64,000 nucleotides of DNA from an uncultured bacterium (GTDB lineage Bacteria > Calescibacteriota > Calescibacteriia > Calescibacteriales > Calescibacteriaceae), in assembly GCA_938036315.1 (NCBI GenBank), contig CALHPK010000001.1, positions 124,001 to 188,000 on the forward strand. The letters are read 5' to 3'. The notes under the pieces are model-generated. The model had not been told where the DNA came from. It did not search any database and saw only the letters and a program-made list of their open reading frames with translations. This document shows, one piece after another, positions 45,095-45,826 of the stretch. How positions within the stretch are numbered: position 1 is the stretch's first letter; the number at the start of each line of letters is the position of its first letter. The translations under genes and the position numbers were made by a program.

Positions 45095-45616
45095 TTAAAA
45101 GAGTATCTCTTCCTCCTTTTTGATCACTTCTTCTTTTGGTTCTTCAACCTCGGCTTCTGGTGCAGACGGAACAGGGACTCGAGGCTTTGGCAATATCTCA
45201 GGGATAAACTTTGTGAGAAATGAATCTATCATATATAAATCCGCAAACCCTATAGGGCCAACTGTTACTGTTTCATCTCTGACTGACATACTGAAGAAAA
45301 CGCCATCGTCTCTCCTTTCAATTTTGAAGGTTTTAGGTAATCCCCTTTTTCCAAACTTCTCCGGTGTGTGTGAAATAGATGGATTCTTTTTTGGAGATTG
45401 TCCAGCAAGTGTGAGTCTAGAAAATGCGCCTATGATTGATGCTTCTTGCGGAGTCAAAGCTATTGTCACCTTCTCTTCCCATCTATATTTCCTTCCACCT
45501 GACTCCCTGCCAGCACCACCTACGGGCTTAGCAAAAGATATAAACACAACTCCCCTCAGAGGATCAGCTGAAAATCTTATAGCTCCGTTGTTCCTGTATA
45601 TAGTTAGGACAGACAC
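45095..45616 (-). CDS. Whirly-like single-stranded DNA-binding protein with SSB-like acidic C-terminal tip
   Basis: Protein of 173 aa, GTG start. The N-terminal 140 residues resemble the plant Whirly/kinetoplast MRP fold. TIYRNNGAIRF is followed by a beta-strand RGVVFISFAKP, then RKYRWEEKVTIALTPQEAS, where plant Whirlies have a KYDW-x-K-x4-ALSPTE-type segment. FKIERRDDGVFFSMSVRDE and VGPIGFADLYMIDSFLTKF, then IPEIL, match their last strands and helix. Next comes a Pro-rich linker (about 144-155) and an acidic tail ending KKEEEILF, similar to the protein-docking tip of bacterial SSB (DDDIPF). It starts exactly 10 nt after tRNA-Ala. The similarity was judged by eye, without an alignment tool. 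Confidence 0.6.
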   Translation of the reverse strand: MSVLTIYRNNGAIRFSADPLRGVVFISFAKPVGGAGRESGGRKYRWEEKVTIALTPQEASIIGAFSRLTLAGQSPKKNPSISHTPEKFGKRGLPKTFKIERRDDGVFFSMSVRDETVTVGPIGFADLYMIDSFLTKFIPEILPKPRVPVPSAPEAEVEEPKEEVIKKEEEILF

Positions 45617-45626
45617 TTTATTTTTG

Positions 45627-45698
45627 TGGAGTCGAGGGGATTTGAACCCCCGACCTTCGGCGTGCCATACCGACGCTCTCCCGCTGAGCTACGACCCC
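45627..45698 (-). tRNA. tRNA-Ala (anticodon GGC)
   Basis: 72 nt, full cloverleaf on the minus strand. Acceptor GGGGTCG pairs with CGACTCC (one G-U). D stem GCTC/GAGC; anticodon arm TCGGT-ATGGCAC-GCCGA with GGC at 34-36; T arm GGGGG-TTCAAAT-CCCCT. Discriminator A; CCA is not encoded (A is followed by CAAAAA). Reads GCC/GCU codons. The Whirly-like gene begins 10 nt downstream. Confidence 0.96.
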
Positions 45699-45826
45699 AC
45701 CCTAAACAAAATATAAAAACACTAAAAAGTCTTTTCCTAATTTCTTAGTTTTTTTGTAGAATTTCTCACAGACCCCTCAATCCCTCTGAATTTACAAAGT
45801 ATAAGGAAAAAATCCCGATAAATATT

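Follow-up and report, generated by a model that had tools for sequence, protein, structure and literature searches.

A Whirly-superfamily protein with an SSB-like acidic C-terminal tip in bacteria of the Candidatus Calescibacterium lineage

Results

The locus and its reading frame

The window, i.e. the whole stretch of 64,000 nucleotides analysed in this work, comes from a deep-branching hot-spring bacterium of the Candidatus Calescibacterium lineage. The features of the locus studied here are summarized in Table 1.

Table 1. Features of the Whirly gene and of the adjacent tRNA gene, in positions of the window
Feature	Position	Strand	Properties or basis
Whirly-family gene, stop included	45095..45616	-	173 aa, GTG start
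Whirly domain, residues 1-143	45188..45616	-	predicted beta4-alpha-beta4-alpha, calculated pI 9.9
RNNGAI, residues 8-13, position of plant KGKAAL	45578..45595	-	VIA ranges and alignment
RKYRWEEK, residues 42-49, counterpart of plant RKYDWEKK	45470..45493	-	alignment
K95, invariant in 18 aligned sequences, aligns with StWHY1 Lys188	45332..45334	-	alignment; PMC9070903
Pro/Glu-rich acidic tail, residues 144-173	45098..45187	-	calculated pI 4.6, predicted disordered
SSB-like C-terminal tip KKEEEILF, residues 166-173	45098..45121	-	orthologue alignment, SSB tips, ORF background
tRNA-Ala(GGC), just upstream of the Whirly gene	45626..45698	-	kept in 4/5 species

The four further genomes examined from the family encode orthologues 50-66% identical to the window protein. 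The five proteins, which represent three genera, all begin with MS[AV]LTIY, and each of the five species examined has a single copy of the gene. When about 380 bacterial genomes were searched, no Whirly gene was found outside the lineage. In 84,980 species genomes, a scan yielded four loci (two in Candidatus Calescibacterium, one in HRbin19 and one in a further MAG) encoding proteins identical to those of the four other family genomes, so that five distinct sequences are known.

Most of the gene and its tRNA are covered by an antisense ORF on the plus strand (45120-45716, 198 aa), which is longer than the gene; a gene caller that keeps the longest ORF would choose it and lose the real Whirly gene. 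This overlap, together with the weak similarity of plant chains to the single window sequence (E 0.59, see below), might be taken to mean that the antisense ORF is the real gene, or that the Whirly match is due to chance. Such an artefact is hardly conceivable: differences between the window gene and that of locus L003 amount to 0.27, 0.19 and 0.63 at codon positions 1, 2 and 3, and this dominance of third-position changes identifies the minus-strand frame as the coding one. In addition, the gene is kept in five genomes, all antisense frames contain stops, and the reciprocal profile matches and independent structural matches described below contradict a chance resemblance. The antisense ORF, although longer, is a by-product.

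In four of the five species, tRNA-Ala(GGC), on the same strand, precedes the start of the gene by about 10-15 nt, and no obvious Shine-Dalgarno site is seen (the arrangement was compared at the window and at loci L003, L004, L005 and L007-L009); in the fifth (L010), AGGAGG is present and no tRNA-Ala(GGC) lies ahead of the gene. Processing of the tRNA 3' end could free a nearly leaderless Whirly message, whose expression would depend on the tRNA promoter, as might suit an abundant protein.

Whirly homology and predicted fold

A preliminary description of this DNA, made by eye, had likened the first 140 residues or so to plant Whirly domains, pointing to TIYRNNGAIRF, RKYRWEEKVTIALTPQEAS and IPEIL, all of which are present in the ORF. 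This resemblance holds at the profile level. Pfam Whirly (PF08536) is the sole Pfam match of the window protein (26.7 bits for a curated cut-off of 23, E 5.6e-6), neither PUR, PC4 nor the OB-fold SSB profile PF00436 being reported. Four of the five orthologues match Pfam, to Whirly alone at any E, and the score of G004, 21.2, is slightly under the cut-off. Aligned by hhalign with four plant Whirlies, the lineage gives an E of 1.2e-5 and a probability of 81%. A phmmer search of 177,635 PDB sequences at E<=10 returned only one match, Arabidopsis WHY2 (E 0.59), and profile A1 alone had no match among PDB sequences, presumably because this profile is narrow. Searches of NCBIfam and PHROGs gave no match.

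The AlphaFold2 model of the window protein, which like the second model below rests on five sequences only, has a mean pLDDT of 78 and about 90 over most of the domain. Its predicted topology is beta4-alpha-beta4-alpha, i.e. two four-stranded sheets with a helix after each. When this model was compared with known structures by VIA-align, plant Whirlies came first (Z 13.9 to 13.3), directly followed by MRP1/2 (12.8) and, after a gap, by PUR (8.1), a PC4 homologue being still lower (3.6). Trimmed alignments with plant Whirlies have an rmsd of 2.3-3.0 A over 119-125 residues, and identity in the structural alignments is 23-26% to plant Whirlies and 12% to MRP. A separate model of the most divergent orthologue left this order unchanged (Z 13.8 for plant Whirlies, 11.5 for MRP1/2, 7.9 for PUR). 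A Whirly fold and Whirly homology are thus supported by Pfam, by reciprocal profiles and by two predicted structures, as the preliminary description had anticipated, and on this evidence the window protein belongs to the Whirly superfamily.

Several weaker candidates were set aside. Candidate matches in Dhillonvirus phages (tblastn, E about 1) lie inside an unrelated 254-aa hypothetical protein and were taken as chance, and scans of viral contigs found no relatives of the window protein. Genome matches outside the lineage with profiles A1, A3 and A6 (E 0.007-0.09) look like noise, several of them containing stops, and the locus in G114 is an RNase III-like ORF. In a Foldseek search of a viral library, several phage proteins of unknown function match the Whirly model with a probability of about 1 (e.g. 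A0A8S5UTR0, G9B1W3, S5YLT8); on this structural likeness they are possibly Whirly- or PC4-like.

Conserved and divergent positions in the domain

Residue equivalences were taken from the VIA ranges (model residue 1 corresponds to StWHY2 58 and StWHY1 93), and MAFFT agrees. Where plant Whirlies have KGKAAL, the window protein has RNNGAI and its orthologues K[KR]xGA[VM]; the second lysine of the motif (StWHY2 K67) is replaced by N10 in the window protein and by T, N or S in the orthologues. K67 is required for the formation of plant 24-mers, and its loss makes a 24-mer of the plant type doubtful. Green-algal and Marchantia Whirly-like proteins likewise lack KGKAAL (PMC9070903), so that the motif marks the Whirlies of higher plants and not the superfamily, and its absence is compatible with membership of the latter. 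Because of this absence we call the window protein a Whirly-superfamily protein and not a plant-type Whirly.

Other positions are shared throughout. W46, in the counterpart of the plant RKYDWEKK segment, is invariant in plants, in the Calescibacterium lineage and in the plasmid proteins described below, and W46, E58 and K95 are all three invariant in the 18 aligned sequences. The equivalence of K95 with StWHY1 Lys188 uses a chain offset of 54. In total, the lineage has in common with plant WHY1, WHY2 and WHY3 (PDB 1l3a, 3n1h, 4koo, 4kop, 4koq) the predicted topology over the whole domain, the RKY-x-W and HxP-...-K motifs, K95, a basic domain and an acidic C-terminal tail, which in plants is acidic/aromatic. 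It differs in that identity is only about 24%, the window protein is bacterial and has no targeting peptide, the loops preceding strand 4 and following helix 1 are longer, and the tail terminates with an SSB-like [LI]F where the plant end is Glu-Trp.

Relatives on proteobacterial plasmids

A weak tblastn match (E 0.2) in a Pseudomonas koreensis plasmid, in a protein whose C-terminal half reads HVYGGKVAVCFSAD...RSYNWDDKIAIQLSPREL, proved real. Used as tblastn query, this protein matched 174 plasmid records, and the domain of a second plasmid member matched 232. Predicted conjugative plasmids, from Pseudomonas, Aeromonas, Vibrio, Shewanella and Enterobacterales, account for 148 of the latter. 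Among the plasmid matches listed, nearly all bear the annotation 'hypothetical protein', and the carriers include an E. coli plasmid of type IncC. Queries of the plasmid type found no match in phages.

Twelve plasmid proteins were retrieved (loci L036:991-1929 and L037-L047; e.g. AVX93230.1 and WP_261737510.1), and the domains of 10 match Pfam Whirly (best 1e-5). A profile built from the 12 placed six plant Whirly sequences as its top six PDB matches (best 6.8e-4) and, in 386 bacterial genomes, detected four of the five lineage proteins, the one of the window at 4.1e-7, and, besides these, only the RNase III-like ORF of G114, at 0.007. Tested against 2,700 shuffles, it ranked all nine real sequences first (13.5-31.6 bits, shuffles at most 4.5), and the hhalign values were 9.2e-9 against the plant set and 2.4e-10 against that of Calescibacterium. 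Judged by these comparisons, the plasmid proteins are divergent and unrecognised Whirly-domain relatives carried by over 200 proteobacterial plasmids. Their mean identity to the lineage is about 18%, with N-terminal extensions of variable length; W46, E58 and K95 are held in common. Many members of the plasmid family, several of the retrieved proteins included, read GG[KR]AAL at the KGKAAL position, L047 for instance having GGKAAL; 10 of the 12 have K or R at the second lysine, and none of the 12 has the acidic Phe tip.

The plasmid genes often adjoin replication initiation (rep), integrase/recombination or helicase genes; the neighbours include tyrosine integrases, ATP-dependent helicases, DnaB, ParB, conjugation genes and an S24 peptidase with a Y-family polymerase. 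In an unrooted maximum-likelihood tree, Calescibacterium (support 99), plants (99) and plasmids (88) form three distinct groups; the tree therefore gives no sign of recent transfer from plants.

The acidic tail and its tip

The domain is followed by the Pro-rich linker noted in the preliminary description, which is in fact Pro/Glu-rich; AlphaFold2 confidence is very low at residues 147-173, as expected for disorder. The KKEEEILF end, which had been compared with the tip of bacterial SSB, is a conserved feature: in all five orthologues an acidic tail ends in [LI]F (EEILF in four, EQEIF in one), the remainder of the tail varying and the final [LI]F staying constant. The OB-fold SSBs of the five genomes end in DDSDLF, EEELF, EEDNLF, FDIF and FDIF, so that in this lineage Whirly proteins and SSBs alike have a terminal [LI]F preceded by an acidic stretch. 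The lineage SSBs (L001, L024-L027) thereby have an acidic [LI]F where the E. coli SSB tip has PF. Among 137 ORFs of at least 100 aa in the loci read, a C-terminal Phe with at least three acidic residues in the last eight positions occurs in Whirly orthologues and SSBs only, and in none of about 129 other sampled ORFs; the Whirly genes of the window and of L009, hidden in this sample by overlapping ORFs, have the same tip. The features of an SSB-type tip are therefore present, with a linker predicted to be disordered, an acidic run, a hydrophobic residue and a terminal Phe.

Plant Whirlies have an acidic/aromatic C-terminus that was proposed in a review to act like the SSB tail (PMC6963530), and in StWHY1 the terminal Glu271-Trp272 contacts Lys188, mutation of Trp272 raising ssDNA binding (PMC9070903). 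The association of a Whirly domain with an acidic/aromatic tail is thus already known from plants; what is new here is a Whirly domain with an acidic tail in bacteria, and with a literal SSB-type tip. Since K95, the match of Lys188, is invariant, the StWHY1 result also lends weight to a simpler reading, in which the tail, an acidic peptide lying on the DNA-binding face, has no function beyond autoinhibition and its likeness to the SSB tip is a convergence without partner binding. We consider this rather doubtful, as the exact [LI]F end is kept at the extreme C-terminus of all five proteins while other tail residues vary, the tip tracks that of the SSB of the same lineage, and a C-terminal Phe would not be needed for inhibition alone.

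Coexistence with SSB and PriA

All five genomes encode an OB-fold SSB, which has an acidic [LI]F tip of its own, the PF00436 match in the window genome lying on a contig other than that of the Whirly gene. The preliminary description had left it open whether the Whirly protein supplements or replaces SSB; replacement is not supported given the presence of SSB in all five genomes, which indicates that the protein supplements it. PriA is also present in all five. RecO_C (PF02565) was found in none of the genomes G000-G004 (about 85% complete) and in 9 of 14 control genomes; since it was missed in Thermotoga also, no conclusion was drawn from its absence, and RecO varies.

Discussion

In this work we describe a Whirly-superfamily protein encoded by bacteria that also encode a canonical SSB. 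It is probably an accessory single-stranded nucleic-acid-binding protein acting beside SSB, with a tail that would both damp binding and dock readers of the SSB tip. This interpretation is suggested by the combination of a basic domain (pI 9.9) with an acidic tail (pI 4.6), by a tip kept in all five proteins and like those of the SSBs of the same genomes, by PriA in all five genomes and the conservation of K95, by the Pfam, hhalign, plasmid-profile and structural matches to Whirlies, and by the frequent proximity of plasmid relatives to replication, recombination or helicase genes. Several points count against it: the second KGKAAL lysine is N, T or S in the lineage, the tip has L or I at the position of the Pro of E. 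coli SSB, MRP1/2, almost as similar in fold, bind RNA, and the models were built from five sequences only.

We propose the following mechanism. The Whirly domain, basic and made of two sheets, would form a tetramer that binds ssDNA, and perhaps RNA, across these sheets irrespective of sequence. The tail, flexible and acidic, would occupy the basic surface around K95 in competition with ssDNA; apparently, the tail of potato Whirly acts in this way via the lysine matching K95. The [LI]F tip would dock in the SSB-tip pockets of PriA and of other genome-maintenance enzymes, which would thus be brought to Whirly-coated ssDNA. The bacterial SSB, including that of the lineage, has a likewise disordered tail with an acidic tip, on an unrelated OB-fold domain. 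ThermoDBP of the Thermoproteales is also a non-OB ssDNA-binding protein of thermophiles, as proposed here; it belongs to a different family and is said to replace SSB, not to accompany it.

The rank of Trypanosoma MRP1/MRP2 (PDB 2gia, 2gid, 2gje), RNA-annealing proteins of the kinetoplast with the same overall topology, raises the question of whether the protein mainly binds or anneals RNA, as an MRP1/2-like protein or RNA chaperone with a tail that serves an RNA-processing partner. Plant Whirlies bind RNA as well (PMC9070903), and the tRNA-Ala gene lies directly ahead of the Whirly gene in four of five species. We nevertheless regard this as unlikely, because the sequence similarity is to Whirlies (Pfam, and an identity twice or so that with MRP in structural alignments), the tip matches that of SSB, a DNA protein, and plasmid relatives lie near DNA replication and recombination genes. 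It is slightly harder still to see the protein as a nucleoid or transcription regulator, of the PUR/PC4 or plant Whirly kind, with no helper role in replication or repair: plant Whirlies do act also as nucleoid and transcription factors (PMC9070903) and PUR has the general fold in common, but the SSB-like tip points toward replication and repair partners and no regulatory neighbour is conserved at the Whirly loci. An accessory role beside SSB is thus the interpretation that we favour.

Whirlies are called plant-specific or unique to plants in reviews (PMC9070903, PMC6963530). Our literature search found no paper on bacterial members, most subscription papers being outside its reach, so that an earlier mention is possible. 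A broader, tentative idea, which we put forward as a possibility and do not expect to be the likeliest outcome, is that plant organelles and, via MRP, kinetoplasts took over Whirly from what is an ancient ssDNA-binding family of bacteria and plasmids; the acidic/aromatic tail of plants and the acidic-Phe tip of Calescibacterium might then be versions of one partner-docking peptide, and Whirly a second, non-OB hub of the SSB type. Bacterial Whirlies, present on a hot-spring chromosome and on plasmids of proteobacteria, put the origin of these organelle proteins into question again and provide simple systems for testing the function of the Whirly tail; as the tail resembles the SSB tip of its own host, the analogy between the plant Whirly tail and the SSB tail becomes directly testable.
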